The notes under the pieces were generated by a model that had not been told where the DNA came from, did no database searches, and saw only the letters and a program-made list of their open reading frames with translations. A stretch of DNA of 64,000 nucleotides from Picosynechococcus sp. PCC 7117 (GTDB lineage: Bacteria > Cyanobacteriota > Cyanobacteriia > Cyanobacteriales > MRBY01). This document shows, in pieces, positions 17,442 to 48,800 of the stretch (positions are counted from its first letter, which is position 1; every line of letters begins with the position of its first letter). The position numbers and the translations under genes were made by a program. The DNA lies in NCBI RefSeq assembly GCF_001693275.1, contig NZ_CP016477.1, positions 2,108,001 through 2,172,000 of the forward strand. The letters are read 5' to 3'.

Positions 17442-18698
17442 TTAAACCATCTCCAAAGGGGGAATTTCCGAGCGCTGCATCGTCGCCTCTAACTGCACCT
17501 CTGCCATATCCGCTTCTACCGCTGCCATCAGTTGCTCCCGGAGGTCAGGCATCACAGCCAAGGCCCTTGTCCAGTCTGGAATGCGGTATACAGCTGGCTC
17601 GTGCATATATTTATCAAAGGCTAAAGGAATGATCTGTTCAAAGCTTTCGACGGTCATTTCCTCCCGGTGGCGATCGTAGGGAATACCGTTACAGGTCGCA
17701 TCGACAAAATATTGACGGATCATATCCTGGGCGACGCGGCGGAACTTCACCTGGAGCGCGATTTGGTGCCCTTCAGAGAAAACAATTGATTCGGTTTCCG
17801 TCAGAGTGCGCAGAATAGAGGACAAAATTTCGGTACACATTTTCTGTAGCCCTTCCTGGGGATTGTTGCCCACGGCTTTGTGTTTGTGGTCAAAGAACCC
17901 CAGATCCACCTGGGCCACCCGTTTCGGCGCTACGTTGCGATAAACCTCTGCCAATAACCCCACTTCAATGCCCCAGTCACAGGGAACGCGCAAATTTAAG
18001 GCCAAATCAGCGGTCATGGCAAATTCGCCGGCGAGGGGATAGCGATAGGACTTGAGGTAGTGGAGGTAGGCATTGCGCCCCAGGACATCTTCGAGGGTTG
18101 CCAACAGAGGCGCAACAAAGAGACGCACAACCCGGCCATTCATCGCCCGGTTTTCGAGGCCGAGACGGGTGTAGTAGGCTTTGTTGTAGGCAATACCAAA
18201 TTCTGGTTCCACGATGGGATAAAACAGCTTGGCCACCAGGGAACGGTCAAAGGTGACAATGTCGGCATCATGGAGGGCGATCGCCCGGGCATCTAGGGAC
18301 GCCAGACCAAGGCCCAGCCATACCGCCCAGCCCTTGCCCATGTAGTCAAGGAGATTGAGATTTTGGTGGGCGAGCTTTTCTAAGATGCCGCGAATTCGGG
18401 CTCCATTCGTCCAAATGACGTTGACCTTTTGGGGCAATTCACGAAAAAACGTCACGGCATGGTGATACTGTTCGACGGTTTCGGCGTGGAGACAAACGTT
18501 AACCGTCTGGATGTAGGCACAGCCTTTTAAATGTTCTTTGATCCGGGTAAGGGCAGGCCGTTGAAGTTCTTCATAAAGTGAGGGAATGAGTAACGCCATG
18601 GGGCAAATTTCACGAAGATTCATCAGGCGTTTTTCGAGGTAGTCCAGATCGGCATCAAGATCATGGATGGTGGTGATGAATTCTTGGCAAAAGTCCAT
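17442..18698 (-). CDS. gpgS: Glucosyl-3-phosphoglycerate synthase (GT81)
   Basis: GpgS transfers glucose from a nucleotide sugar to 3-phosphoglycerate, the first step of glucosylglycerate synthesis. The 418 residues show the GT-A fold of family GT81. The nucleotide-binding start is around ALLIPSLYEEL, GKGWAVWLGL holds conserved contacts, the metal-binding DxD is Asp144-Ala-Asp146 in LHDADIVTF, and the acceptor side includes AGEFAMTADLA and DWGIEVGLLAEV. Glucosylglycerate accumulates in some marine Synechococcus under nitrogen limitation plus salt. AGGTGACTAGCA precedes the ATG. It is divergent from the GH13/gpgP operon, so synthesis and turnover genes share one control region. Confidence 0.92.
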   Translation of the reverse strand: MDFCQEFITTIHDLDADLDYLEKRLMNLREICPMALLIPSLYEELQRPALTRIKEHLKGCAYIQTVNVCLHAETVEQYHHAVTFFRELPQKVNVIWTNGARIRGILEKLAHQNLNLLDYMGKGWAVWLGLGLASLDARAIALHDADIVTFDRSLVAKLFYPIVEPEFGIAYNKAYYTRLGLENRAMNGRVVRLFVAPLLATLEDVLGRNAYLHYLKSYRYPLAGEFAMTADLALNLRVPCDWGIEVGLLAEVYRNVAPKRVAQVDLGFFDHKHKAVGNNPQEGLQKMCTEILSSILRTLTETESIVFSEGHQIALQVKFRRVAQDMIRQYFVDATCNGIPYDRHREEMTVESFEQIIPLAFDKYMHEPAVYRIPDWTRALAVMPDLREQLMAAVEADMAEVQLEATMQRSEIPPLEMV

Positions 18699-19012
18699 TG
18701 CTAGTCACCTAAATAAAAAGAAAATCTTAAAATTCGCCTTTAAATTAACCCAATTTTTTGGGAGTGGCCGTATCTAAAGCGACGTAAAAATCACTACAAT
18801 GTCATCCGCATTTGTTGATAGGCTGAGATTTAACTTGAATAAAGGATGAGTCAGCCGTTTTTTCGTCCCCAAGAAAATACTGAAAAAACAGATCAATCGA
18901 GTTTTTAAAAATGATGTCTGTTGATCCTGTAATCACGAGGCTCTGGGGTTTAAAAAAACGACGTGGGCTTGTCCCCGATGAGTGAAATTAGCGTGTTTGT
19001 CTTGTTACTCCT
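18699..19012. other. 314-base divergent control region of the glucosylglycerate locus
   Basis: It separates gpgS (minus) from the GH13/gpgP operon (plus). On the plus strand it holds a possible -10 box TACAAT (18795-18800), then a hairpin with T-tract at 18821-18862, then a second inverted repeat (ACAGATCAA with TTGATCCTGT, 18888-18930). CCCAATTTTTTGGG (18749-18762) lies 51 bases before gpgS. No open frame of note. Confidence 0.6.
18821..18862 (+). terminator. Terminator-like hairpin in the GH13/gpgP leader
   Basis: GGCTGA and TCAGCC form a 6-bp stem with a 24-base loop, followed at once by GTTTTTT. It lies 150-190 bases upstream of the GH13 start codon and points in the direction of that gene, so it could act as a transcription attenuator. 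The long loop makes a constitutive terminator less likely. Confidence 0.4.
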
Positions 19013-20770
19013 ATGACCATTCCCCAGATTGCAGGTCTTGGCGATCGCCTTGATGAATTTTTTGCGACCCTATATCCTGATCATCCGCCTGCAGCATTAG
19101 TTGCGCGTTTGGAGCAGGTACTTGCGCCCCATGTGACGGCGACGACGAAAAATGAAGAGTTATGGGATCAAAGCACGGCCCTGATGATTACCTACGGGGA
19201 TAGCCTGTACCAAGCCAATACTGACAATGGCCCCAACCCCCTCCAGGTACTTTTGACTTTTCTGCGGGAACGGCTCCAGGGAGTAATTAGCGGTGTGCAT
19301 ATTCTGCCGTTTTTCCCCTACAGTTCCGATGATGGTTTTGCGGTAATCGATTACCGCCAGGTCAATCCACAGTTGGGCAGTTGGCAAGATATCGAGGCGA
19401 TCGCCAAAGAATTTGAAGTGATGGCCGATCTGGTGATCAACCATGTCTCAAGTGAATCAGACTGGTTTCGGCAATTCCTCGCCCAGGAAAAACCCGGTTG
19501 TGACTATTTCATTGAGGTGCCCCCAGATACCGATACCCAGTTAGTGGTGCGCCCCCGCAGTAGCCCGCTCCTGAGTCAATTTGCCACGACAAAAGGCGAT
19601 CGCCACGTGTGGACCACCTTTAGCCGCGATCAAGTAGATGTCAACTTTGCTAACCCCGACGTCCTCTTTGAATTTATCGATATCCTCTTGGGTTACTGTC
19701 AGCACGGCATCCGCTTTATTCGCCTTGATGCGGTGGGCTTTCTCTGGAAAAAATTACAAACCGCCTGCATTCACCTGCGGGAAACCCATCTGGTGATCCA
19801 ATTGATCCGGGAAATCCTTGCTGTCACCTACCCACGCACCGTGGTGATTACCGAAACCAACGTCCCCAACCGGGAAAACCTCAGCTATTTCGGCAAGGGC
19901 AACGAGGCCCACATGATCTACAATTTCAGCCTGCCGCCTTTGCTCCTCAATGCGCTGATTCGGGGCGAAGCCCGGCACCTCAAAACCTGGATGAAAAGTA
20001 TGCCCCCGGCCCAGGATGGTTGTGCCTACTTTAATTTCACCGCCTCCCACGATGGCATTGGCCTCCGCCCCGCCGAAGGTCTGCTAGAAGGCAAAGAATT
20101 CGATCAATTGATCCAAACCATGGCCGAATTTGGGGCCAGAATTAGCTATCGTAGTCTGCCCAACGGCACCGAAAAACCCTATGAACTGAATATTTCTTTA
20201 TTCGATGCCCTCAAAGGCACAATCACAGGCCCCGACCCCTGGCAGCGGCAACGATTCCTCTGTTCCCAGGCGATCATGATGTCTTTAGAGGGGGTGCCCG
20301 CTTTTTATATCCATAGTTTTTTAGCGACCCCTAATGATGATGCCAAGGTGGCGATGACAAACCATAACCGCAGCATTAACCGTCACCAATGGGACTATGA
20401 CCGACTCCAGAAAAAACTCGCTGACCCTGATTCTGACCAAGCTTGGGTATTAGAGGCACTGACAAAACTCATCCAAATCCGTTGCCAACAGCCTGCTTTC
20501 CATCCTAATGCGACCCAATATACCCTTGATTTCCAAAGTCCGGCAGTATTTGGTTTTTGGCGTCAGAGCCGCGATCGCCGCCAGAGTATTTTCTGTTTAT
20601 TTAACCTAGGCGATCGCCCCACCACTATCCCGGTGGCAAGCCTAAACCTGATTTGCACCGACGACTGGCAGGATCTGTTGGGTCAAGTTGTGTTAGAAGA
20701 AGGCACAACGGACATTTCCCTAGCCCCCTATCAAACTGCGTGGATTACCAATGTTCCTCTGCTTCACTGA
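19013..20770 (+). CDS. GH13 subfamily 18 phosphorylase, probably glucosylglycerate phosphorylase
   Basis: A 585-residue glycoside phosphorylase of the sucrose-phosphorylase group. The catalytic residues are Asp239 (nucleophile, RLDAVGFLWK), Glu281 (acid/base, VITETNVPN) and Asp347 (ASHDGIG). The protein is longer than typical sucrose phosphorylases (about 500 residues) and fits the glucosylglycerate phosphorylase branch known from Meiothermus. Its position supports that reading: gpgP overlaps its 3' end by 20 bases and gpgS is divergent. The expected reaction releases glucose 1-phosphate and glycerate from glucosylglycerate with phosphate. Sucrose phosphorylase activity remains an alternative. 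A structured leader may regulate it. Confidence 0.85.
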   Translation: MTIPQIAGLGDRLDEFFATLYPDHPPAALVARLEQVLAPHVTATTKNEELWDQSTALMITYGDSLYQANTDNGPNPLQVLLTFLRERLQGVISGVHILPFFPYSSDDGFAVIDYRQVNPQLGSWQDIEAIAKEFEVMADLVINHVSSESDWFRQFLAQEKPGCDYFIEVPPDTDTQLVVRPRSSPLLSQFATTKGDRHVWTTFSRDQVDVNFANPDVLFEFIDILLGYCQHGIRFIRLDAVGFLWKKLQTACIHLRETHLVIQLIREILAVTYPRTVVITETNVPNRENLSYFGKGNEAHMIYNFSLPPLLLNALIRGEARHLKTWMKSMPPAQDGCAYFNFTASHDGIGLRPAEGLLEGKEFDQLIQTMAEFGARISYRSLPNGTEKPYELNISLFDALKGTITGPDPWQRQRFLCSQAIMMSLEGVPAFYIHSFLATPNDDAKVAMTNHNRSINRHQWDYDRLQKKLADPDSDQAWVLEALTKLIQIRCQQPAFHPNATQYTLDFQSPAVFGFWRQSRDRRQSIFCLFNLGDRPTTIPVASLNLICTDDWQDLLGQVVLEEGTTDISLAPYQTAWITNVPLLH

Positions 20771-21602
20771 TCTCGACGGCACCCTCCTCAACCACGATGA
20801 CTATCGCTACGATGCGGCGATCCCGACGATCCAGACCTTGAAAAAAGCGGGAATTCCCATTATTCCCACCACCAGCAAAACGAAGGCGGAAGTGCTTGAA
20901 CTGCGCGAAGCCCTCGGGTTAAAGGATCCGTTTATTGTGGAGAATGGCAGTGGCATTGTCCTCGAATCTGACGATCCACGGTTTGATTTTTCGGCATTGG
21001 ATCTAGAGATTACGACCGAGGCAAACCTAACCACCATTACCCTCGGCATTTCCTACGCCCAAGCGCGACAATCCCTCCAGAATTTGGCCCAACAGATCGG
21101 GGAACCCTTAACGGGGTTTGGGGATTTAAGTCTGGAAGCATTACAGGATCTCACGCAATTGCCCTTAGAAGCGTTAAGACAGGCGGGCGATCGCCAATTT
21201 AGTGAACCTTTTTTGCGACCCCAGACGGATTTAGGGCAACTAGAATCCTTAGCGACAAAAGCTGGCCTGCAAATCCTGGTGGGGAACCGTTTCTGTCATC
21301 TTCTGGGGGCGGAAGCCGGAAAAGGGCGCGCCGTGCAACTCCTCCAGCAGGCATGGCAAAAAGCCCATCCCGATCAACCGCCCGTCAAAACCCTCGGCCT
21401 GGGGGATAGTCCCAATGATTTGTCTTTACTAGAAGCTGTGGATGTGGCGATCACCGTGCCGGGGCCCCAGGGGGTCAACCCTAAACTGGTATCCCAAATT
21501 GAAACAAAGGGCTGGTTCGTAGCTCCAGAGCCCGGCGCTCAGGGGTGGGCCAGAGCCGTGACAGCCCAACTTAATTCTCCGTTTGGCATGGCGGCACCTT
21601 AA
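20751..21602 (+). CDS. gpgP: Glucosyl-3-phosphoglycerate / mannosyl-3-phosphoglycerate phosphatase (HAD)
   Basis: A 283-residue HAD phosphatase of the MPGP/GpgP family. Motif I is FTDLDGTLL with Asp7 as nucleophile and Asp9 as acid/base. Motif II is IPTTSKTKAE, followed by PFIVENGSGI, and motif IV is GLGDSPNDLSLLEAV. GpgP removes phosphate from glucosyl-3-phosphoglycerate, giving glucosylglycerate and completing the pathway begun by the divergent gpgS. ATG 20751 overlaps the GH13 gene by 20 bases, indicating coupled translation of a synthetic and a degradative enzyme. A membrane protein gene follows 90 bases downstream. Confidence 0.9.
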   Translation: MFLCFTDLDGTLLNHDDYRYDAAIPTIQTLKKAGIPIIPTTSKTKAEVLELREALGLKDPFIVENGSGIVLESDDPRFDFSALDLEITTEANLTTITLGISYAQARQSLQNLAQQIGEPLTGFGDLSLEALQDLTQLPLEALRQAGDRQFSEPFLRPQTDLGQLESLATKAGLQILVGNRFCHLLGAEAGKGRAVQLLQQAWQKAHPDQPPVKTLGLGDSPNDLSLLEAVDVAITVPGPQGVNPKLVSQIETKGWFVAPEPGAQGWARAVTAQLNSPFGMAAP

Positions 21603-21692
21603 TTAAATTTGCCAAAAAATCATCATTTTCTCCGATTAGGCGATCGCCAACCATTTGCTAGGCTATTCCCGGACATTGCCAAAATACCGCCT

Positions 21693-22805
21693 ATGTTTTT
21701 GTTTTTGAAGCAACTGACCAGTTGGGACCGCTGGAATCAATTCCTGGTGAGTCTCTCGATTTTGGCTTTTTTGCCCTTACAGTTTCCCCAGGTGATCAGC
21801 AACGCAGCGGTCATTGGTACAGGAAATCCAGCGGCGATCACCACCCTGGGTGTAATTCCTGTGGGTGGTTATGCAGCCGGAATTTTAGGTAATTTGCTGC
21901 TGATGAATTTTCTTGCTGGGCAACGGGAATTTTGGGGCACCACCGTCCAGGCCGTCGGGATCGTCACCGCCGACATTGTGATCTTTCAACTGTTTCAGGT
22001 GGGTTTCATTCCGGGGTGGTTATTTTGGCCGGCGACTCTGTTTTTGCTAGTGGGGATGGTGCTGAACTACGGCCATTTTCTCGTTGGCGATCGCCCCAGT
22101 TGGCAGGCGCAATTTTGGCCCCAATGGCGACGCATTTTACAGTGGCTCGGCATTGCTCTACTCCCCGCATTGGTTGTGCTCCAACTCCACGATGCTTTTT
22201 TCCCAAATCTCCCAGAATGGCCAGGGGGCCTTGGAGCGGCATTCCTCTTGAGTGGCTTGATGGTGCAACTAATTCAACGGCAAACCGTAAGCCTACCCAA
22301 CTTTTTTCAATACCAAAACCGCTGGCGACGGGGGGTAATGGCCCAGAGCACTTGGCTGAAAAGCTGGCTGCGGCGGGGCTGGCGCGGTTTGGCGGGCTGG
22401 ACGGCAAATCTGTTGTTTATGTTTAACTCCCTGGCTCAGTTTGTGAACTGCTTAATTTATCCCGATGATCTGGCGGCCCTCTCCCTCACAACCCAAGTGC
22501 TGTTTGTGGTGGGGAATTTGTTGATGTTGTCCCGCTCCGGCACCCTCCTCATTGCCGGGAAAGACCGGATTTGGTGTGCCAGTACCCTCTGGGATCTGTT
22601 GATGCGGGTCGGGATTTTTGCCTGCTTACTCCAGGCTGGCCTCCTCAGCTTGCCGTTATTTTGCGTATTTTGTGGGGCGATCGCCATTTATTTAAGCTTC
22701 ATTTTTTTGATGACCAAGCGAGTTTACCCAAGCTCTTCCCTGGCAGATACCGCCATTTTTCTGCTATTTGGTCGTTCTCCCCAATGGCAGCCCATTGAAA
22801 GTTAA
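21693..22805 (+). CDS. Unrecognised polytopic membrane protein
   Basis: About 370 residues with some nine hydrophobic segments, including ITTLGVIPVGGYAAGILGNLLLMNF and several Trp-rich helices (LQWLGIALLPALVVL, VGIFACLLQAGLLSLPLF). I do not recognise the family. A basic loop near residue 210-245 (RQTVSLPNFFQYQNRWRR) would face the cytoplasm. ATG 21693 starts the membrane-protein pattern; an upstream in-frame TTG at 21609 would add a polar HIP1-containing stretch and is unlikely. It lies 90 bases after gpgP in the same direction, so it may belong to the glucosylglycerate operon; transport of the solute is only a speculation. Confidence 0.6.
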   Translation: MFLFLKQLTSWDRWNQFLVSLSILAFLPLQFPQVISNAAVIGTGNPAAITTLGVIPVGGYAAGILGNLLLMNFLAGQREFWGTTVQAVGIVTADIVIFQLFQVGFIPGWLFWPATLFLLVGMVLNYGHFLVGDRPSWQAQFWPQWRRILQWLGIALLPALVVLQLHDAFFPNLPEWPGGLGAAFLLSGLMVQLIQRQTVSLPNFFQYQNRWRRGVMAQSTWLKSWLRRGWRGLAGWTANLLFMFNSLAQFVNCLIYPDDLAALSLTTQVLFVVGNLLMLSRSGTLLIAGKDRIWCASTLWDLLMRVGIFACLLQAGLLSLPLFCVFCGAIAIYLSFIFLMTKRVYPSSSLADTAIFLLFGRSPQWQPIES

Positions 22806-22955: not shown

Positions 22956-23594
22956 TTGGGCATTGAACTGCGCAGCTATGTTTATCTCGATAGCCTGCAA
23001 CCGCAACACGCATCCTACATTGGTACAGTCGCCCTTGGATTTCTACCTTTACCAGGAGACTCATCCCTCTGGATTGAAGTGTCCCCAGGCATTGAAATCA
23101 ACCGCATCACCGATGTGGCCCTTAAATCCACCTCCGTGCGCCCAGGGGTACAGTTTGTCGAACGTTTGTATGGGTTACTCGAAATTCACTCGCCCCGCCA
23201 AGGGGAGACCAAGGCCGCAGGCCAAGCAATCCTCGATTCCCTTGGGGTAACGGCCAAGGATTGCCTCAAACCGGAGGTGGTCTCTAGCCAAATTATTCGT
23301 AATATTGATGCCCACCAGGCCCAATTGGTAAACCGGAATCGACGGGGGCAAATGTTGCTGGCGGGCCAAACCCTCTATGTCCTGGAAGTGCAGCCCGCAG
23401 CCTATGCGGCCCTCGCAGCTAATGAGGCGGAAAAATATGCCCAGATTAATATTTTGCAGGTGACGGCGGTGGGGAGTTTTGGCCGGGTCTATCTTGGGGG
23501 TGAAGAACGGGACATTATTGCCGGTTCCCAGGCCGCCCTTGCGGCGATCGCCTATGCCCCTGGCCGACCCCAATCAACCCAGCGTCAAGAATAA
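22956..23594 (+). CDS. ccmP: Beta-carboxysome shell protein CcmP (tandem BMC domains)
   Basis: CcmP is a minor shell component of the beta-carboxysome. Its two fused BMC domains let a trimer mimic a hexagonal shell tile, and pairs of trimers form a gated compartment. The 212-residue protein begins [20 protein letters not shown] and contains [23 protein letters not shown] (first domain, about 1-100). The second domain (about 108-205) has [21 protein letters not shown] and ends [11 protein letters not shown]. The start is TTG 22956, preceded by GGGAGA, and it reproduces the conserved family N-terminus. It lies outside the main ccm operon, as in other beta-cyanobacteria, and is followed after 14 bases by a pentapeptide-repeat gene. 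Confidence 0.92.
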
Positions 23595-31493: not shown

Positions 31494-32183
31494 ATGGAGG
31501 CAACCAGCGATTTACTGCAAGAATTTTCGGCATTATCGGCGAAAAAGCAGCTAGAACAAATCCCCCAACTGATTGACCAAGGGGATGCTGGTTTTGCTTG
31601 CTTGAGAGAATTTTTGATGGCGCAACAGGGCCAGGCGGCAACCCCTGTCATGGGGAAAATTTGCCAGGTGCTCACCCAGAATCAAACCGCCGAAAATTTA
31701 TTGTTCATGCAGCAAGAATTTCCGGAGGGGGTCGTTGAACTCAAGTCAGCGCGAGAGATTGATTACCAGATTATTCAAGACAAATTGATCGAAGAGGAGT
31801 TTCTGGAAGCGGATATTTTAACCCTCCAGAAAATGTGTGAACTGGCAGGAGAATCTGCTATGAAACGAAAATGGCTCTACTTTACGGAGGTAGAGCGGTT
31901 TCCCGACGAGGATCTGCTCACCCTCGATCAGCTGTGGCAGGTTTATTCTGGCGGGAAATTTGGTTTTTCGGTACAGCGTAAATTATGGAATTCCCTCGGT
32001 AAAGACTTCAATGCCCTCTGGGAAAAAATTGCCTGGCGAGATGGGCGAACCTGGGCGCGTTATCCCAAAGCATTTATTTGGAATCTGGATGCACCCAGGG
32101 GACATCTGCCCACCTCCAACCAGTTACGGGGCGCAAAAACGATCCTCGCGCTGTTCCAACATCCCGTGTGGACAAAGGACTAG
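31494..32183 (+). CDS. gun4: Tetrapyrrole-binding protein Gun4
   Basis: Gun4 binds protoporphyrin and Mg-protoporphyrin and stimulates Mg-chelatase in chlorophyll synthesis. The 229-residue protein has an N-terminal helical-bundle domain (about 1-85, beginning SDLLQEFSALSAKKQLEQIPQ) and the GUN4 core (about 90-225). The core shows RKWLYFTEVERFPDEDLLTLD, LWQVYSGGKFGFSVQRKLW, WARYPKAFIWNLDAPRGHLP and a C-terminal LRGAKTILALFQHP. This length and architecture are those of Synechocystis Gun4. GGGGAG lies 12-15 bases before the ATG. Its stop shares 4 bases with that of the convergent ABC permease gene. Confidence 0.92.
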   Translation: MEATSDLLQEFSALSAKKQLEQIPQLIDQGDAGFACLREFLMAQQGQAATPVMGKICQVLTQNQTAENLLFMQQEFPEGVVELKSAREIDYQIIQDKLIEEEFLEADILTLQKMCELAGESAMKRKWLYFTEVERFPDEDLLTLDQLWQVYSGGKFGFSVQRKLWNSLGKDFNALWEKIAWRDGRTWARYPKAFIWNLDAPRGHLPTSNQLRGAKTILALFQHPVWTKD

Positions 32184-33043
32184 GATTTCACTGAACCCGC
32201 TAAAATTCCCCGTACGAAATAGCGTTGTAGGCTGAAGAAAACGCCGAGGGGAACGATCATCGAGATAAAGGCTCCGGCAGTGAGTAGGTGCCAATCCTGA
32301 CCCCGTGACCCGACTAAATTACTCAGTTGGATCGTGACGGGGGCAACGTCATTTGTGGTGCCTAAATAAACTAGGGCGATGAGCAAATCATTCCACACCC
32401 ACAGAAATTGAAAGACCGCAAAGGAGGCGATCGCCGGCATCGAGAGGGGGACGATTAATTTCGTAAAAATCTTCAGGTGGGACGCGCCATCCACCGCCGC
32501 CGCTTCGATTAAATCCTTTGGTAGTTCGCCGATATAATTCCGCAGAAGATAAATCCCTAAGGGTAAGCCATAGCCCGCATGGGCGAGCCACACCCCCAGA
32601 AAACTGTTGGACAAGCCGAAATCTCGATAAGCCCGCAGAATCGGAATCAGGGTCGTTTGTAGCGGGACAACCAGCAAACAAACCACCACGATAAATAAAA
32701 ATTGTCGCCCCGGAAATTTCATCCAGGCAAAGGCATAGGCGGCAAAACAGGCGATCGCAATCGGAATTACCGTCGCGGGAATGGCGATCGTCAAGCTATT
32801 AAAAAAGGCCTGTCCCATCCCCTCCGCTTGGAGCACATCCACATAATTTCCAATGTGATATTGGGTTAGTTCAAAGGGATGTTGAAAAATTGTCCACCAG
32901 CCCGTTTCCAGCATTGCATCCCGTCGCCGAAAGGAGCTAATGAGTAACCCCACCGACGGCAATGTCCAGATAAAAGCGATCACCAATAACGAAATATGAA
33001 TCGGTGTTTTTTGCCAAAATTGAGTTTGCTTTTGCTGTGCCAT
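32180..33043 (-). CDS. ggtD: ABC sugar/osmolyte permease, MalG type (GgtD-like)
   Basis: A 287-residue inner-membrane permease with six membrane segments and the EAA loop near residue 190 (IEAAAVDGASHLKIFTKLIVPLS) that contacts the ATPase. It belongs to the MalG branch of carbohydrate importers and partners the permease gene just upstream, which it overlaps in a TAATG arrangement. The four-gene set ATPase-binding protein-permease-permease resembles the ggtABCD glucosylglycerol/sucrose/trehalose importer of Synechocystis. The symbol is by this similarity; other disaccharide importers of the family cannot be excluded. Confidence 0.78.
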   Translation of the reverse strand: MAQQKQTQFWQKTPIHISLLVIAFIWTLPSVGLLISSFRRRDAMLETGWWTIFQHPFELTQYHIGNYVDVLQAEGMGQAFFNSLTIAIPATVIPIAIACFAAYAFAWMKFPGRQFLFIVVVCLLVVPLQTTLIPILRAYRDFGLSNSFLGVWLAHAGYGLPLGIYLLRNYIGELPKDLIEAAAVDGASHLKIFTKLIVPLSMPAIASFAVFQFLWVWNDLLIALVYLGTTNDVAPVTIQLSNLVGSRGQDWHLLTAGAFISMIVPLGVFFSLQRYFVRGILAGSVKS

Positions 33044-34020
33044 TAGCGTAATTTCTCCTGTGTTCTAAACCGTCGAATATTACTGATCATTACCGGAATA
33101 ATTAAGATTAAAAGCACGATGGCGATCGCACTACCACGCCCAAAATTTCGATAATTAAACATCTCTTTAATCATGCGACTGGCAATCACTTCCGTGCCAT
33201 AGTTCCCCCCCGTCATCACAAAAACAATATCAAATACTTTCAAGACCAAAATAATAATCGTGGTACTGACAACGAGAATCGTGGAACGGATCATTGGGAT
33301 CGTAATTCGCCAAAAAATTTGCCAACTATTCGCCCCATCAATCCGCGCCGCTTCGATCACTTCTTCGGGAATACCTTTGACTGCTGAAGATAAAATCACC
33401 ATTGCAAAGCCCGTATAGAGCCAGATCATAATTGCAATCAAAGCAAAATTATTCACCGATTGTTCGACAATCCAGCCCACGGGTTCAAAGCCAAAATTCA
33501 CCAACAGCGCATTTAAAACACCAATTTGATCATCCCCAGCGGGTTTGTAGGCGTACATAAATTTCCAGATGACACTCGCCCCCACAAAGGAGATTGCCAT
33601 CGGCAAGAAAATCAAGGATTTAATAATTGGTTCATAGCGCACTTTGTCAACCAGTACGGCAATAATTAATCCCAAACTGACGCTGACACCTGTAACCAAA
33701 ACAAGCCAAAGCAAATTATTTTTAAACGCAATTAACATTGCCCGGTCAGTGAAGGCAAAAGTATAGTTTTTGAGTCCGACAAAATTTTGCGATCGCCCAT
33801 CTAGAAAACTCAAATAAAAAGTTTGCACCGTCGGCAAAATTAAATAGGCAGAAAGCAATAATAATGCCGGAGAAATATACACCCACGGCAACAGTCGCTG
33901 ATTCCAGGGTTTCGGTAGGGCATTAATCGCAATATTCGCTAAATAAAACAGCCCAATCACACCGCCACAACCAATGGCGATCGCCAAGACCACGTTCAGT
34001 AGACGCGTCCAGAATTCCAT
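33043..34020 (-). CDS. ggtC: ABC sugar/osmolyte permease, MalF type (GgtC-like)
   Basis: A 325-residue inner-membrane permease. An N-terminal segment (about 8-32) is followed by the six-helix MalF-type core beginning WVYISPALLLLSAYLILPTVQTFYLS, with the EAA loop IEAARIDGANSWQIFWRITIPMI. The open frame extends to 34131, but that extension translates a TCCCCC/GGGGGA inverted repeat (IPLNPPSKGDF) and is not protein-like. ATG 34020 has GGAGG 5 bases upstream, so I choose it. Its stop overlaps the ggtD start. A hairpin-forming spacer separates it from the binding-protein gene, which may lower permease expression relative to the binding protein. Confidence 0.78.
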   Translation of the reverse strand: MEFWTRLLNVVLAIAIGCGGVIGLFYLANIAINALPKPWNQRLLPWVYISPALLLLSAYLILPTVQTFYLSFLDGRSQNFVGLKNYTFAFTDRAMLIAFKNNLLWLVLVTGVSVSLGLIIAVLVDKVRYEPIIKSLIFLPMAISFVGASVIWKFMYAYKPAGDDQIGVLNALLVNFGFEPVGWIVEQSVNNFALIAIMIWLYTGFAMVILSSAVKGIPEEVIEAARIDGANSWQIFWRITIPMIRSTILVVSTTIIILVLKVFDIVFVMTGGNYGTEVIASRMIKEMFNYRNFGRGSAIAIVLLILIIPVMISNIRRFRTQEKLR

Positions 34021-34078
34021 CATGACCTCCATGAAATACTTACAGTCTCGGTTAAAGAAGGATTCAGGGGAATCGAAG

Positions 34079-34096
34079 TCCCCCTTTGAAGGGGGA
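34079..34096. repeat. Inverted repeat in the ggtB-ggtC spacer
   Basis: TCCCCCTTTGAAGGGGGA is a perfect 18-base palindrome within an 88-base spacer. It is flanked by further CCCC/GGGG tracts. I recall this type of GGGGGATTTAGGGG repeat as dispersed in many cyanobacterial genomes. It can fold in mRNA between the binding-protein and permease genes. Confidence 0.6.
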
Positions 34097-34108
34097 TTTA
34101 GGGGAATG

Positions 34109-35410
34109 TTACTCAGGCCAACTGTTTTCAATATTGGTTAAAACCGTTTCGGCATCTGCGCCACCGACATAGTCCACCATGCCTGACCAGAACGTCCCCG
34201 TTCCTACCGCCCCCGGCATCATATCCGACGCATCAAAGCGGATCACTTCCGCATTCCCCAAAATCTCTGCTTGTTTACGGCTTAAATCTGTGGGATATAG
34301 AGCCAAATCGATGCCCTGCCGGGGCGAAAGATAGCCCCCTAGTCCTGCGGCTACCTCGTGGGGCGTTTTACTGGCGAGATATTCCATCAATTGCCGCGCT
34401 TCCGGGGTGTCATTAAACATTGCGAACACATCCCCCGCAACGAGGATCGGCAAACCTTGCTCTGGATTAATCTGCGGCAGTGGGAACACATCCACATCCT
34501 CATCAAGATTAATGTCCGTCGGTAAAAATGCCTCAATAAAGTTCCCCTGCTTGTGTAGGTAGCAGTTGGGATCGTCGCCAAACAGTCCTTGAATCGAATC
34601 TCCGAAAGGCGTACTTAAGGCACTCACTACGCCACCATAGACATAATCTTCGTTGCGGACAATGTCGCCGAAAATGTTGACTGCATTTTCTACCGCCGGA
34701 TCATTAAAGGGAATTTCGTGGTTAATCCATTGGTCATAGACGTTGGGACCTGCGGTGCGTAGCATAATTTCTTCGACCCAATCGGTGCCGACCCACCCCG
34801 TAGCATCACCACTTTCCATGCCGATACACCAGGGGGTTTTGCCTTCGGAAACAATGCGATCGCTCAAGGCCAACATTTCATCCCAAGTGGTCGGAATCTC
34901 GTAGTTATTCGCCGCAAACTGCTGCGGGTTATACCAAACCAAACTTTTGACCGAAGCCCGGTACCATACCCCATAGGGCACATTCTCTACACTGCCGAGC
35001 TGAATCCACGACTCATCATAGGCCGCCTGCAAATCCTCAAGGCTCATAAATTCCGTAAGGGGAACCAGCCGACCTTCCCGCGCGAAATCCGCCATCAGCC
35101 CCGGTTGAGGAAACATCGCTAAATCAGGTGGATTACCAGAATCGACCCGAATCGGTAGGGTCGTCGCAAAAGTATCTGTGCCTTCGTAAACCACTTCAAT
35201 GCCAGTTTCTTCGGTAAAGGGAGCTAGTGCTGCCTCAATTTTTTCCTGTTGCTCCCCGATCATCACCCCGAAAACGGTGACTTGTTTGGTGTCACTGACT
35301 GTACTGTCTCCAGAGGTTGTTTGTTCGCCAACACAACCTGTTAAAACGAGTGCGGAACCAAGTGCGAGGGAAGTAAGCTTAAGTGGAGATTTTTTTTGTA
35401 AAAAAAACAT
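34109..35410 (-). CDS. ggtB: ABC sugar/osmolyte-binding lipoprotein (GgtB-like)
   Basis: A 433-residue family 1 solute-binding protein. The signal peptide ends in a lipobox LTGC with Cys26 as lipidation site. The mature protein has the typical two-lobe pattern: FTEETGIEVVYEGTDTFATTLP near the start, GVWYRASVKSLVWYNPQQF, PTTWDEMLALSDRI and the C-terminal AGDVFAMFNDTPEARQLMEYLAS. It should deliver a disaccharide-like compatible solute to the two permeases encoded downstream. The closest functional model is GgtB of Synechocystis, which binds glucosylglycerol, sucrose and trehalose; ligand identity here is inferred. An 85-base spacer with a hairpin separates it from the ATPase gene. Confidence 0.8.
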   Translation of the reverse strand: MFFLQKKSPLKLTSLALGSALVLTGCVGEQTTSGDSTVSDTKQVTVFGVMIGEQQEKIEAALAPFTEETGIEVVYEGTDTFATTLPIRVDSGNPPDLAMFPQPGLMADFAREGRLVPLTEFMSLEDLQAAYDESWIQLGSVENVPYGVWYRASVKSLVWYNPQQFAANNYEIPTTWDEMLALSDRIVSEGKTPWCIGMESGDATGWVGTDWVEEIMLRTAGPNVYDQWINHEIPFNDPAVENAVNIFGDIVRNEDYVYGGVVSALSTPFGDSIQGLFGDDPNCYLHKQGNFIEAFLPTDINLDEDVDVFPLPQINPEQGLPILVAGDVFAMFNDTPEARQLMEYLASKTPHEVAAGLGGYLSPRQGIDLALYPTDLSRKQAEILGNAEVIRFDASDMMPGAVGTGTFWSGMVDYVGGADAETVLTNIENSWPE

Positions 35411-35461
35411 TCATAAAAGTTGAATTCAGCAAATAAATTAAAAGAGAAGTTTTATTTTGAA

Positions 35462-35479
35462 TGGGGTTTAAGCGCCCCA
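35462..35479. repeat. Hairpin in the ggtA-ggtB spacer
   Basis: TGGGG and CCCCA pair around an 8-base loop (TGGGGTTTAAGCGCCCCA). On the minus strand it is followed by ATTCAAAATAAAAC, too mixed for a clear terminator. It may be a processing or attenuation site between the ATPase and binding-protein genes. Confidence 0.45.
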
Positions 35480-35495
35480 AAAATAGCAGATGATT

Positions 35496-36611
35496 TTATG
35501 CAATAACGGTTTCCATTTCGCGATCAAAAAGATACAAGCGTTGGACATTCCATAACACATCAAGGGTTTCTCCCTGTTTAACCGTAGCACGGGGGTCAAA
35601 GCGCGCGACGAATTCCCCTTGTTCAGCCGTTGTGAGATAAACAATGAGTTCATTGCCCATCATTTCAATCATATTGATCGTCGCTTGCACAGCGACAGTG
35701 GGAATATCAGGGGGTAAATATTGGGGATGATAAATATCTTCAGGACGAATCCCTAGGGTAAGGGGCCGATCCTTGAACGTCACGCCACCATCGACTATAA
35801 ATTGCGGTAAATACTTTTGAATTGAAATTAAGTTTTCCCCCAGTTTGAGACAGGGTTCCCCTTCATTGGTGGTTTGTTCGACGTCAAAAAAGTTCATCGC
35901 GGGACTGCCAATAAATCCAGCGACAAACAAATTATTGGGATTGTTATAGAGATTGCCGGGACTATCGACCTGCTGCAAAATCCCATCCTTCATCACGGCA
36001 ATGCGATCGCCCATGGTCATCGCTTCCACTTGGTCGTGGGTGACGTAGATAAAGGTGGTGTTGAGGTCTTGGTGGAGTTTACTAATCTCTTTACGGGCCT
36101 GGACACGCAATTTTGCATCAAGGTTAGAAAGGGGTTCATCCATTAGAAAGACGGCGGGTTTACGGACGATTGCCCGCCCCACGGCGACCCGTTGCCGCTG
36201 TCCCCCAGAAAGTTCTTTGGGTTTGCGTTGTAATAGTCTTTCGATGCCTAATTGGGCAGCGGCACTCTGGACACGCTTGTTAATTTCGGTTTGATCAACT
36301 CCCTGCAATTGCAGACTGAACGCCATATTTTCATAGACGCTCATGTGGGGATAGAGGGCGTAGGATTGGAACACCATCGCAATGTCGCGATCTTTAGGGG
36401 AGAGGTGATTGACCCGGCGATCGCCAATGCAAATTTGCCCATCGGTAATCGATTCAAGACCCGCCAGCAACCGGAGAGAAGTCGTTTTCCCACAGCCGGA
36501 CGGCCCCACAAATACTAAGAATTCACCATCTTCGATGGCAAGGTTGAGGTTGTTGACGGCGACAAAATCATCAAATCGCTTCGTCACTTGCTCGAACGTT
36601 ACGCTAGCCAT
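35496..36611 (-). CDS. ggtA: ABC transporter ATPase, MalK/UgpC type (GgtA-like)
   Basis: A 371-residue ATPase. Walker A is GPSGCGKTT (Gly36 to Thr44), then the Q-loop MVFQSYALYPHMSV, signature LSGGQRQRVAVGRAI, Walker B VFLMDEPLSNLD and switch His in YVTHDQVEAMT. A C-terminal regulatory OB-type domain (about 240-371, TLGIRPEDI) is typical of MalK/UgpC proteins. It powers import through the two permeases encoded downstream. In Synechocystis ggtA is at a separate locus, whereas here it heads the same cluster as ggtBCD. A shared ATPase serving several importers is possible. Confidence 0.85.
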   Translation of the reverse strand: MASVTFEQVTKRFDDFVAVNNLNLAIEDGEFLVFVGPSGCGKTTSLRLLAGLESITDGQICIGDRRVNHLSPKDRDIAMVFQSYALYPHMSVYENMAFSLQLQGVDQTEINKRVQSAAAQLGIERLLQRKPKELSGGQRQRVAVGRAIVRKPAVFLMDEPLSNLDAKLRVQARKEISKLHQDLNTTFIYVTHDQVEAMTMGDRIAVMKDGILQQVDSPGNLYNNPNNLFVAGFIGSPAMNFFDVEQTTNEGEPCLKLGENLISIQKYLPQFIVDGGVTFKDRPLTLGIRPEDIYHPQYLPPDIPTVAVQATINMIEMMGNELIVYLTTAEQGEFVARFDPRATVKQGETLDVLWNVQRLYLFDREMETVIA

Positions 36612-39736: not shown

Positions 39737-42700
39737 TTATTGATCCTTCATCCAATTATCATCAATCATCGCATCATCATCAATCACAGGTGCTTTTCCC
39801 TGGACATCCGACGGGATCGGCGTATCATCAGAAATCAATTCATCGCCAGAGATAATATCCTTACGGTTTGATTTTCCTTCCGTAAAGGCCCGCGCTGTTT
39901 GATCATCGAGAATTTCGCTGCCATCAAGATCATCATAGGAACGACTCGACAACCCAGCACCATTGTCATTGGTCACGACATTGCTGTATCCATTGGGAGA
40001 CCGTGAAGTTCCTTCGTCTACGAAATCATTTTGACTCGCAAACCCCGTTCCGGCTGGAATCAAGCGACCGATAATCACGTTTTCCTTGAGGCCCCGTAAC
40101 CAGTCAGATTTTCCTTCAATGGCTGCTTCGGTGAGTACCCGTGTGGTCTCTTGGAAGGAAGCCGCAGAAATAAAGCTATCGGTGTTCAAGGACGCTTTGG
40201 TAATCCCTAGGAGCACTGGAGTATAACGGGCCGGTGCACCACCAGTAATGGACATGGCTTCGTTAACTTGTTCTACTTGACGTAGTTCAATTAACTCCCC
40301 TGGCAACATTGTGGTATCGCCACCGTCATCGATGCGAACCTTTGCCGTCATCTGACGCACGATCACCTCGATGTGTTTGTCAGAAATGTCAATGCCCTGG
40401 GACTGGTAAACCCGCTGCACTTCTTCTACCAAGAACCGTTGAGATTCCCGGAGACCAATCAAAGCCGCTTCGTATATCCCCTTACTCTCAGCGTAGTAAT
40501 CAAAGAAAATTTCCAGGATTTCGTGGGGATTATTCAAGCCGTCAGTGAGGGGTTCTGCTGGGCCAACCCGTTGACCATCAACTACCATCACACTTTGGTT
40601 GAGGCTAACCGGATACTCGCTAATGACACCGTCATCTTCGATGACTTTGACATCCACGGTTTCGTCGTCGAGGTATTCGACTTGGCAGGTGCCAGGGCGA
40701 CGGGCGAGCACTGCGGCTTCCTTGGGTTTCCGGGCTTCGAGGAGTTCTTCGATCCGGGGGAGACCCTGGATGATGTCCCCAGTTTTTGCCCGCTCAAAGA
40801 CGAGTAGAACGAGATTGTCACCCCGTTGCACAAGGTCACCTTCGTCGATGTGCAGGACTGCGCCACCAGACACACGGTAGGGCCGGGCGTGACGGAGGAC
40901 AATTTCTTTGTCGCTGACTTTGAGGACTTGGGCAGAATCTTCGATCACGACGCCTTCGGCAATTTCGGTGCCAGCAACCACCAGGGTATTTTCTTTCACC
41001 TTGGCTTTGCCGTCGATGGCGAGGGTTTGGCGATCGCTATCACGCACAATCAACAAACGGCGGATCGCTTCTTGGCCAGAACGGATCCCTCGAACCTCAC
41101 CGGGTTCTTTACATTGAATTTCCGTGCGGGCCACCACTGCGCCAGGGGCAATTTCCTGGCCATCTTCGACCATGAGTCGGGTCTGGACTTGCCCACCAAA
41201 GGGATCACTATCGGAATCACGGCGGAGAATCAAGGACTCAAGAATCACTAGCTGGAGACGTTTTACTTCGTCATCGGTGGGATCATCTTGCAGTTCAATG
41301 TCCGCATAGAGGTTCGCGAGGACATCTTCATCTTCCCCTTCAATGGCACCAATTTCGATAATCAGCTGGGTGCTCAGGAGAGAAACACCATCAACGGATT
41401 TCACCCGTTCGCCATCTTTAAAGAATAAGCGCTGGACAGCATGGAGTTCGATATTCCGGCCTGCGCCCTGTTCGTTAATGGAACCTTGGGACGGTTCAAC
41501 GGGGGTATCCTCGACTTGGAATTCCTCGACGGGACGGACAAGGAGCGCGACCCCTTCGGTGCTGATCACTTTTTCGCCGTAGCTCAGCTTGTCGATGGTC
41601 ACCCCAGGGATCACCTCTTCACCGGGCTGGATCAGTTGTTCGTGATATTTATCGGCGATCGCCTCTTCGGTCAGGTGCAATTCACCCGGCTTAATAATCA
41701 CTTCCCGGAGAATGTCATTCTTTTCGATGACCTCTGCGACCCCAGCCGACTGAGAGAAAATATCCTTAACGACTTCTGTGCCCGCTTCGACGTACTGGCC
41801 ATCTTCGACGATACGCAGAGAGCTATCCTTGTTTACCTCGTGGGTTTCCTCTGGGATCCAAAGGAGTGTGCCCCCTTTCAGCACTTCGTAGCCCTGTTTT
41901 TTCGTGCCCTTGGCCACTTCTACACCAGAGTATTTGATGATGCCTCCGGTGGTTGTCCGGTAGCGGTCATCAATAAGTTCAGCGATGTTGGCGTTGTTTT
42001 GCACCTTCGTGCCGGGGGCTGTTTTCAGGAGGAACTGATCCCCTTTAGAGGTTTCAATGATGTATTGTTCTGAGCCGCCCCCAGTTTCGTGGAGTACCTT
42101 CGCCTCATCTAGGAGTACCGAAGCGGTGACAATTTCAATCTCTCGGCTGTTGGGAATGAGTCGTACAACACCACCGGAGAGGGAAACTAATTTTGTTTCA
42201 GCGAGGATATCACCCACATTGACATGGGTGCCGTTTTCAACGACGGGTTCAGCCCCAGCCGGCAGATTATAAACATCCCCAGCTAAAACCCACATCAAAC
42301 CACTTCTTTGGGCGGAGCGGGTTGTGTTGCCTTGACGATCCGTTTTTTCTTCGGCAATGAGGTTATCAAAGAGAACTTCCCCAGCCAGATCGGAGGAAAC
42401 GTCTTTGGTCGCTCTCTCGGTGGATTTTTGGGTTTTCTGACCCGCACCAACTTCAACGAGCAGATCGCCTTTCTTGACGGAAGCTCCTTCTGCCACCAAG
42501 ACAAAGGAACCCGGTGAAAGCGCATGGCTTACCATTTTGCCATTGTCGCTGGGCTTCAACACCAGAGTACCGGCTACTTCTACCTGCTCTACTTCATCCC
42601 CGTGGGGCGTCCGCATCCGCCGCGTGCTGAGGCCATCTTTAAATTGAATCGTGCCAGCTTTGGAGGCTTTGATCGTCCGGGCGGCTTCCTTGGTAAATAC

Positions 42701-45847: not shown

Positions 45848-48800
45848 TTACTCTGCTGCCTCTTCTACTAAATCCTCTTGATCTTCATTGGTGACTGACT
45901 CATAGGTAGGCCGATTAGGGGCGCGACGTTGATTGTCCATCATCAAATCTACTTCCACATCACGACTGGTACCATCATCGGCTGCTTCCACTTTATGAAC
46001 AGCAATGTCGAGACCCAGGGATTGTAATTCTCGCATTAGAACTTTGAAAGATTCGGGAGTACCTGGGCGAGGAATCGGCTTCCCTTTAACAATCGCATTT
46101 AAGGCTTCGTTACGTCCTTGCATATCATCGGATTTCACCGTGAGTAACTCTTGGAGAGTATAGGCGGCTCCATAAGCTTCGAGAGCCCAAACCTCCATTT
46201 CCCCGAAGCGCTGACCACCCTGCTGGGCTTTACCACCAAGGGGCTGCTGCGTCACCAGAGAGTACGGCCCCGTAGAACGTGCGTGGATCTTATCGTCAAC
46301 CAAGTGAACAAGCTTAAGCATGTACGCTTTACCGACAGTCACGGCTCGATCAAAGGATTCCCCAGTCCGACCATCGTAGACTTGGATTTTGCCAGGTTCA
46401 TCTTCATTAAAGACCCAGTCTTTGTTTGGCTTTTTCGCTGCTTCGCGAATTTTGCCATGTACGGTTTCCCGTGATGCTTCAGCTCCGTGCATTTCGTCGA
46501 AAGGCATCATCTTAAAGCGAGCATTGAGATGTTCGCCGGCCCAGCCTAGGAGACATTCAAAAACCTGGCCTACGTTCATCCGGGAGGGAACCCCTAGGGG
46601 ATTGAGCACAATGTCGACAGGGGAACCATCGGGTAAGTAAGGCATATCCTCAATCGGGAGAATCCGAGAAATAATCCCCTTATTCCCGTGGCGGCCTGCC
46701 ATTTTATCCCCAACTTGGATTTTTCGTTTTTGAGCCACGTAGACCCGAACCACCATATTGGCACCCGGGGGTAATTCATCGCCCTGCTCACGGGTAAAGA
46801 CGCGGACATCAACTACACGTCCCTTTTCACCGTTGGGAACGCGGAGGGAGTTATCCCGTACATCCCGTGCCTTCTCCCCGAAAATTGCCCGTAGGAGTTT
46901 CTCCTCTGGTGGCTGATCGGACTCCCCTTTCGGAGTGACTTTACCAACCAAAATGTCACCAGATTCTACCCAAGCACCAATGCGAATAATCCCTTGTTCA
47001 TCGAGGTGACGCAGGGCATCTTCCCCAACGTTGGGAATTTCACGGGTAATCTCTTCAGGCCCCAACTTTGTTTGACGGGCTTCAATTTCGAATTTTTCAA
47101 TGTGGATACTGGTATACACATCGTCATAGACAAGGCGCTCACTGATGAGGATTGCGTCTTCGTAGTTGTAGCCTTCCCAGGGCATATAGGCGATGGTCAC
47201 ATTTTGACCGAGGGCAATTTCACCACCTTCAGTTGCGGAGCCATCCGCGAGAACCTGACCAGCGACAACATCTTCACCAATGTCTACAAGGGGACGCTGA
47301 TTAAGACAAGTATCTTGGTTAGAACGCTGATATTTTTGCAGAGGATAAACAATTTCAGCGGCGTCCTCGGTGCCTTCACCGGTTGGTTGCACGCGGATTA
47401 CGGTAGCGTCAACGAAGGTAACAACACCATCACACCGGGACACAATAACCATCCCAGAGTCACGGGCTGCTTGTGCCTCCAGACCGGTGCCAACAAGGGG
47501 ACGTTCTGGTCTGAGGAGGGGAACAGCCTGCCGTTGCATGTTAGAACCCATCAGGGCACGGTTTGCGTCATCGTGCTCTAGGAAGGGAATCAGTGAGGTT
47601 GCAACAGAGACGATTTGTAGGGGCGAAACTGCCACATAGTCCACTTGTTCGGGAGTGGTGGTCGAGAATTCGCGACGATAACGCACGGGAACTGTTTCAC
47701 CGAGAATGTTACCGTCTTCATCCCGTGGTACATCGCCGGGGGCAACCCGCAGATCGTCTTCTTCGCCTGCTGTGAGGTAAACAGAGCCTTGGTCAAAGAG
47801 GATTTTGCCGTTTTCGACTTTGTAATAGGGCGTTTCGATAAAGCCATATTCATTAACGCGGGCATAGGTTGCTAGGGAACCGATGAGACCAGCGTTGGGA
47901 CCTTCTGGGGTTTCTACAGGGCAAATCCGACCATACTGGGTGGGGTGAATATCTCGCACAGCAAAGCCGGCCCGTTCACGGGTTAAACCACCAGGGCCGA
48001 GGGCGGATAGACGCCGTTTGTGGGTCAACTCAGCGAGTGGATTGGTTTGATCCATAAACTGAGAAAGCTGGGAGGAGCCGAAAAATTCCTTAATCGCCGC
48101 AACAAGGGGTTTTGGGTTAACCAAGGAGGCTGGTGTTAGGGTGTCGGCTTCACTGACAGTCATGCGTTCACGAATGATGCGTTCAAGACGGTTTAGACCA
48201 ACACGTACTTGGTTTTGTAGGAGTTCCCCCACGGACCGGACACGACGGTTGCCCAGGTGATCGATGTCGTCAATGTTTCCGGTATCGAATTCTAGGTTAA
48301 TAAGATAATCAATCGCCGAGAGGATATCGGTGGGGGTAAGTACCCGTACGGTATCGGGGATGTTGAGCCGTAACTTTTTATTGATTTTGTAACGACCGAC
48401 TTTACCCAAGTCGTAGCGCTTGTTGTCGAAGAAACGGGATTCTAATAGCTGCTGACCACCGCTGACCGTGGGAGGCTCACCGGGGCGGAGCTTGCGATAG
48501 AGTTCGAGGAGTGCTTCTTCTTCGCTGGGATTGCCTTCTTTTTCGAGGGTTTTTTGATAGAAGTCAGCATGGCGCAAGGCGTCAAGGATTTCGCTGTCGG
48601 ATAGACCCATGGCCTTGAGGAGTACCTGGGCTGAAAGCTTACGGGTTTTATCAATCCGCACCCAGACAATGTTGTTTTTGTCTGTCTCAAATTTCAACCA
48701 TGCCCCACGGTTAGGAATGAGGGATGCGGAGTAGGTGCGACGACCATGTTTATCGACTTCGGATTTGTAATAAACCCCAGGCGATCGCACAATTTGGTTG

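Follow-up and report, generated by a model that had tools for sequence, protein, structure and literature searches.

A cyanobacterial glucosylglycerate locus with a predicted NtcA promoter before ggaP-gpgP and an orphan membrane protein neighbour

Genes of the locus and identity of the enzymes

The window analysed here is a 64 kb stretch of Picosynechococcus sp. PCC 7117, situated on a 3.09 Mb contig within a 3.43 Mb genome (G000), and the locus under study is a set of genes for the metabolism of the compatible solute glucosylglycerate (GGA). The gene gpgS, for glucosyl-3-phosphoglycerate synthase (17442-18698, minus strand, 418 aa), and ggaP, for a GH13_18 glucosylglycerate phosphorylase (GGaP; 19013-20770, plus strand, 585 aa), lie back to back and are separated by a spacer of 314 bases. 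The end of ggaP shares 20 bases with the start of gpgP, which encodes a glucosyl-3-phosphoglycerate phosphatase of the HAD superfamily and MPGP family (20751-21602, plus strand, 283 aa). A gene for an orphan polytopic membrane protein of no family (21693-22805, plus strand, 370 aa) follows gpgP as a neighbour whose membership of the system is unsupported. Between gpgS and ggaP lie a predicted NtcA box with palindromic half sites, GTAAAAATCACTAC (18784-18797), and a predicted TAN3T -10 element, TAGGCT (18819-18824, plus strand), 21 nucleotides past the box towards ggaP.

An earlier reading of this DNA (the sequence-only reading) had described a gpgS gene facing a GH13_18 gene, a 20 base overlap of the latter with gpgP and a membrane protein gene 90 bases further on. 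The coordinates bear out this layout, with "facing" a loose word for two divergent genes. The overlap recurs across the genus, measuring 20 bases in five of the six genomes and 17 in G004, where the ggaP stop comes one codon earlier. The gap of 90 bases follows from taking the membrane protein start at ATG 21693; the open reading frame (ORF) as listed opens at TTG 21609 and the homologue in G001 backs the ATG.

The best NCBIfam match of the putative GpgS was GpgS_Meth (NF040724, E 4e-152), whose 507 bits fall under the curated cut-off of 700, and the protein was not assigned to that equivalog. We base the call on full-length homology and on the naming of the corresponding set in PCC 7002. GpgP matched the MPGP family model TIGR01486 over its full length at 252 bits (E 6e-75), above the cut-off of 165. 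The GH13 protein had as its best NCBIfam match the sucrose phosphorylase model TIGR03852, where it scored 197 bits and the cut-off is 334, and was not assigned there; its top match among Protein Data Bank (PDB) sequences was also a sucrose phosphorylase. The NCBIfam match weighs against a GGaP, and both matches would suit a sucrose phosphorylase recycling sucrose, the other common solute.

We consider a sucrose phosphorylase very improbable given the signature residues and the distribution of the gene. GGaP is told from sucrose phosphorylase by a (T/S)ETN motif and by a loop A glutamate at a position that is glutamine in most other clades (PMC7178133). The window protein carries TETN and PYELN, whereas the PDB sucrose phosphorylase reads PEIHE and YQIN at these places. 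Aligned with YcjM of E. coli it was 39% identical over 572 columns, with TETN and the loop A glutamate in both proteins and PYELN opposite PYEIN. YcjM is annotated as glucosylglycerate phosphorylase in the E. coli K-12 record, and an E. coli member of the group is described as a strict GGaP (PMC7178133). [TS]ETN and YE were found in all 35 cyanobacterial homologues examined, as in YcjM. These homologues comprised 27 orthologues and three of four further matches (the fourth without a locus) from a search of 148 genomes, and five proteins from a more distant family.

The 148 genomes, the window's own included, were searched for gpgS at E<=1e-40 and for GGaP at E<=1e-60. Homologues of gpgS were found in 30 genomes and GGaP in 27, all of which fall within the 30; G077, G125 and G139 had gpgS alone (Fisher p 1.4e-26, a value that ignores kinship). 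With the TETN and loop A signatures, the identity to YcjM and orthologues confined to genomes with gpgS, glucosylglycerate phosphorylase is the best assignment for the GH13_18 protein. This agrees with the sequence-only reading, which had proposed a pathway of synthesis and phosphorolysis at this locus and an enzyme acting on GGA rather than specific for sucrose. The divergent trio was present in 6/6 genomes of the genus. Outside it, ggaP was missing from the roughly 1.5 kb around gpgS in 23 of 24 loci, and the remaining one, in G064, was a tandem pair. The trio of G002 differs unevenly from that of the window (L006, L036, L067), with gpgS 99.5%, ggaP 94.5% and gpgP 89% identical, a pattern of divergence inside one locus that possibly reflects recombination.

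A conserved box and -10 element in the gpgS-ggaP spacer

The spacer was compared in a clade set of eight genomes, made up of the six of the genus and of G551 and G628, which both have the divergent pair. An exact GTAN8TAC was found in seven of the eight spacers, despite divergence of the sequence around it. The distance from the box to gpgS is 76-87 bases across the genus, the inner eight bases of the box vary between lineages, and in G551 and G628 an exact box lies 61-67 bases from gpgS. When the spacing of the half sites was varied as a control (GTA-Nn-TAC, n from 4 to 12), n=8 gave 7/8 spacers and any other n at most 2/8. Since the eight genomes include near kin (G000, G001 and G002 on the one hand, G004 and G005 on the other) and do not count as independent, five lineage representatives were used for dinucleotide shuffling. 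The box arose in 2.8-5.0% of shuffles per spacer, with a product of 7e-8; among 4000 shuffled sets three boxes were reached once and more never, and 0/3000 further shuffles gave a box at the same place in three lineages.

A TAN3T element was found exactly 21 nucleotides downstream of the box towards ggaP in 6/6 genus genomes, compared to 1.6-2.8% of shuffles at that fixed place. The canonical NtcA-activated promoter is described as GTAN8TAC centred near -41.5 with a TAN3T (PMC3898017), and sites listed for WH7803 have spacings of N21 to N24, the N21 one being less canonical (PMC9430850). The layout of the spacer fits this class, with GTAN8TAC present and a TAN3T present at N21, close to the roughly 22 nucleotides of the class. 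The conserved box and the TAN3T at N21 throughout the genus suggest a shared, nitrogen-gated promoter for ggaP-gpgP, which would probably express the last enzyme of synthesis together with the phosphorylase that degrades the product.

Several observations weigh against this promoter. The box of G001 has one changed base, and ggaP would have a rather long leader of about 180 bases. Neither G551 nor G628 has a TAN3T towards ggaP (0/2); each has one towards gpgS instead, at N23 and N22, and the direction may be switched in these two genomes or the two matches may be chance. Outside the clade the box was not enriched, being found upstream of gpgS in 2/24 cases against 1.1 expected and upstream of ggaP, where starts were estimated, in 0/21 against 1.1 expected. 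It occurred in one of five spacers of more distant divergent loci.

The TAN3T facing gpgS in G551 and G628 would also fit a box that serves gpgS rather than ggaP, and other regulators of the CRP family can have similar-looking sites, so the GTAN8TAC could bind a different member of that family. We regard either possibility as unlikely, since exact GTA and TAC half sites recur with N8 only and the class II layout points towards ggaP in every genome of the genus.

The window contains three such boxes in all. Besides the one in the spacer there is a box at 40472 and another, likewise with a TAN3T, at 48336; both fall within long minus-strand ORFs. A search against Rfam gave a single snoRNA match with E 0.14, far under its gathering score and taken as chance, and a promoter and terminator scan gave counts not clearly over those of shuffles.

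The membrane protein gene and other neighbours

The sequence-only reading had suggested that the membrane protein could be a dedicated component of the pathway and had called its family unrecognised. The second statement holds, as NCBIfam (no match at E<=0.1), PDB sequences (nothing better than E 1.5) and Pfam gave no credible relative. A Pfam match to Oxidored_q3 had E 0.037, below the cut-off, in one of four members and was treated as chance. There was no match in the plasmid collection. A PQ-loop or SWEET-like protein was considered from two repeats with a PQ-type motif seen by eye. In hhalign comparisons with 29 cyanobacterial PQ-loop proteins, repeat 1 was unsupported (score 13.0; shuffle median 12.5, top 23.6). 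Repeat 2 was weakly supported (score 21.8, matched by 1/100 shuffles with a top of 22.8; probability 12.7%) over a stretch away from the suspected motif. Four members showed no Pfam PQ-loop match at E<=10, which leaves a PQ-loop protein a weakly supported candidate. An internal duplication was also rejected, with an hhalign probability of 1.2%. Two AlphaFold2 models, built from three and four sequences, had mean predicted local distance difference test scores of 47.1 and 48.7 and were too poor to use; a Foldseek search returned 130 matches at E<=10 and none at E<=0.001.

The membrane protein was found in three of the 148 genomes (G000, G001 and G003), compared to 30 for gpgS and 27 for ggaP. 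Among 240 genomes around Nodosilinea it occurred only in Nodosilinea nodulosa PCC 7104, and two loci turned up when GTDB contigs were scanned, in this strain and on a contig of the metagenome-assembled genome Limnothrix sp. RL_2_0. The latter is taken to be the contig of G003, which brings the carriers to four genomes. A scan of the phylum with a profile of the protein matched 8/386 genomes at E<=0.01, the window's own and seven others. These seven were dropped as noise; all had E>0.001 and were fragments only, five of them with internal stops.

The ORF behaves like a real protein under purifying selection, with a ratio of nonsynonymous to synonymous substitutions against G001 of 0.10, compared to 0.07 for ggaP and 0.14 for gpgP, synonymous sites being near saturation. 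In G001 the gene is in the same place and is followed by an EAL-domain-like ORF (called by eye) and then ccmP; in G002 that place holds only the EAL-domain-like ORF. No match to the membrane gene was found in G002, G004 and G005, three of the six genus genomes, all of which keep the trio. The copy in G003 is on another contig (L069:12641-13782, minus strand) beside an MscS-like ORF (called by eye) and is split by a one-base frame change that could be decay or assembly error. Within 17 kb around the Nodosilinea copy there was no gpg gene; that genome does have gpgS and GGaP, unlinked to the membrane gene.

These features bear on a possible dedicated role of the protein in the system, for instance as a GGA or glycerate permease, a leak valve or a sensor expressed from the same NtcA promoter. 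Its gene is on the gpgP strand with no terminator-like match in the 90 base gap, keeps its place in G001 and is under purifying selection, and all four known carriers have gpgS and GGaP. This joint occurrence says little, since three of the four carriers belong to one genus in which gpgS is present in 6/6 genomes and gpgS is common around Nodosilinea (69/192 genomes, and 18/20 of G480-G499, whose low handles we take to mark the nearest kin). With the gene unmatched in half of the genus, displaced and frameshifted in a fourth genome and unlinked in Nodosilinea, and with a protein of no usable fold and no family, a dedicated part is decidedly unlikely. The co-occurrence of the membrane gene with gpgS and gpgP that the sequence-only reading had named as a check was largely absent, and its dedicated component did not hold up. 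Most likely the membrane protein gene is an accessory one with a function of its own, into which transcription from gpgP possibly continues in this strain.

The next gene, directly adjacent, is that for CcmP, a beta-carboxysome shell protein (22956-23594, plus strand). The carboxysome yields 3-phosphoglycerate, which GGA synthesis consumes. G000-G002 share this arrangement, but for G003-G005 the stretches retrieved around the trio contained no ccmP match, and the proximity is therefore probably chance. The ORF before ccmP in G002 and G001, of GGDEF/EAL type by eye (L067:11978-13402 and L066:13372-14607), is absent at this place in the window, a small variable spot in the genus. Further along, at 32180-36611 on the minus strand, the window has a four-gene ABC transporter of sugar or osmolyte type, with two permeases, a binding protein and a UgpC/MalK-like ATPase. 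An osmolyte ABC transporter is reported as A2036-A2039 in PCC 7002 (PMC3468840), and these tag numbers would fit its place.

A nitrogen-gated scheme and its relation to known systems

The synthesis of GGA uses ADP-glucose as the glucosyl donor and 3-phosphoglycerate as the acceptor (PMC4390839), and the reaction of GGaP is reversible (PMC11009771). In the scheme that we propose GpgS would join glucose from ADP-glucose to 3-phosphoglycerate, GpgP would take off the phosphate to give GGA, and GGaP would convert GGA and phosphate reversibly into glucose 1-phosphate and D-glycerate. At low nitrogen NtcA with 2-oxoglutarate would bind and activate a class II promoter at about 18784-18824 from which ggaP and gpgP would be co-transcribed, so that the capacities for synthesis and turnover would rise together. 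The charged solute pool would thereby serve as a store of exchangeable carbon that is coupled to nitrogen status.

Phosphorolysis keeps the energy of the glucosyl bond as glucose 1-phosphate. In each complete cycle the nucleotide-sugar bond is given up along with one phosphate, and an ATP is needed to convert glycerate back into 3-phosphoglycerate. The sequence-only reading had suggested a reversible store without ATP cost, which is right for the phosphorolysis step taken alone and wrong for a full turn. Because each cycle costs energy, co-expression of GpgP and GGaP would fit control of turnover and not a cost-free store; PMC11009771 cites significant turnover of such solutes in PCC 7002.

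The direction of flux could also be the reverse, with GGaP mainly synthetic, using glucose 1-phosphate and photorespiratory glycerate to form GGA, and for that reason co-expressed with GpgP under nitrogen stress. A predicted NtcA promoter common to ggaP and a gene of synthesis and the reversibility of the reaction are consistent with this, but cell phosphate normally exceeds glucose 1-phosphate, which favours breakdown, and we judge a mainly synthetic GGaP quite unlikely. A more far-reaching scheme would have NtcA gate the GGA cycle directly, with one promoter for both enzymes at low nitrogen. The anion pool would then buffer carbon quickly and reversibly, GGaP could also replenish it using glucose 1-phosphate and glycerate of photorespiratory origin, and the orphan membrane protein would be a strain-level addition that moves or senses the solute. 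That combination as a whole seems to us doubtful. Together these data suggest, with good though not full confidence, a cyanobacterial GGA locus in which ggaP-gpgP is predicted to be NtcA-gated and the membrane gene is a separate accessory.

Such a promoter would bear on an enzyme whose metabolic function is stated to be unconfirmed (PMC7178133) and on a solute reported to replace glutamate as counter-ion in nitrogen-limited cells (PMC11009771). If true, a conserved NtcA promoter before ggaP-gpgP would open a cheap and direct test of the role of GGaP, in a genus that is probably a transformable model, and would bear on whether nitrogen stress lifts synthesis, turnover or both. A paper of Klähn et al. 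from 2010 is reportedly the key one on GGA and nitrogen. Literature searches on NtcA with glucosylglycerate, related terms and the PCC 7002 tags gave no title or start of an abstract naming an NtcA site at the locus, and an earlier report is possible. Such a site is likewise unmentioned in the excerpts of PMC2874817, PMC6392094, PMC10873239, PMC3468840 and PMC12102436.

The gene set is real, conserved and already named, in what is apparently a relation of a model strain, and the NtcA promoter is a well-supported, testable prediction on a known pathway. In PCC 7002 the consecutive tags SYNPCC7002_A2021, A2022 and A2023 are named GPGS, GGAP and GPGP (PMC10873239), the same three genes as in the window, linked to it by gene names and order only; the passage concerned describes neither a promoter site nor a membrane protein neighbour. 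A glucosylglycerate metabolism operon is described in Prochlorococcus NATL2A (PMC11631117), and in WH8102 gpgP (SYNW2434) and gpgS (SYNW2436) flank SYNW2435, a middle gene left unidentified in the excerpt of PMC2874817. On these three precedents the trio is an established gene set.

The picocyanobacterial GGA operon of Prochlorococcus and marine Synechococcus has the same divergent order of gpgS and ggaP-gpgP. Among eight distant genomes searched it was found in 5/5 GGaP-positive ones, small genomes of one family (f41) that we take, from their size and distance, to be picocyanobacteria. These loci differ in that their proteins are 34-46% identical to those of the window, the box is in one spacer of the five, and a putative transporter gene is reported in NATL2A (PMC11631117). 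In one of them a P-loop kinase-like ORF with weak matches to nucleoside kinase models lies right behind gpgP (L128:6834-7778, plus strand), and is perhaps the glycerate kinase expected to partner GGaP. The E. coli YcjM, a GH13_18 GGaP, shares its signatures with the window GGaP, but its gene belongs to a glycoside cluster that includes an ABC transporter, with no gpgS or gpgP annotated in the 15 kb retrieved. The class II NtcA-activated promoters of urtA, nirA, ntcB and glnA have the same GTAN8TAC, a spacing of about N21-24 and a TAN3T; the promoter predicted here differs in its target, a compatible-solute operon.

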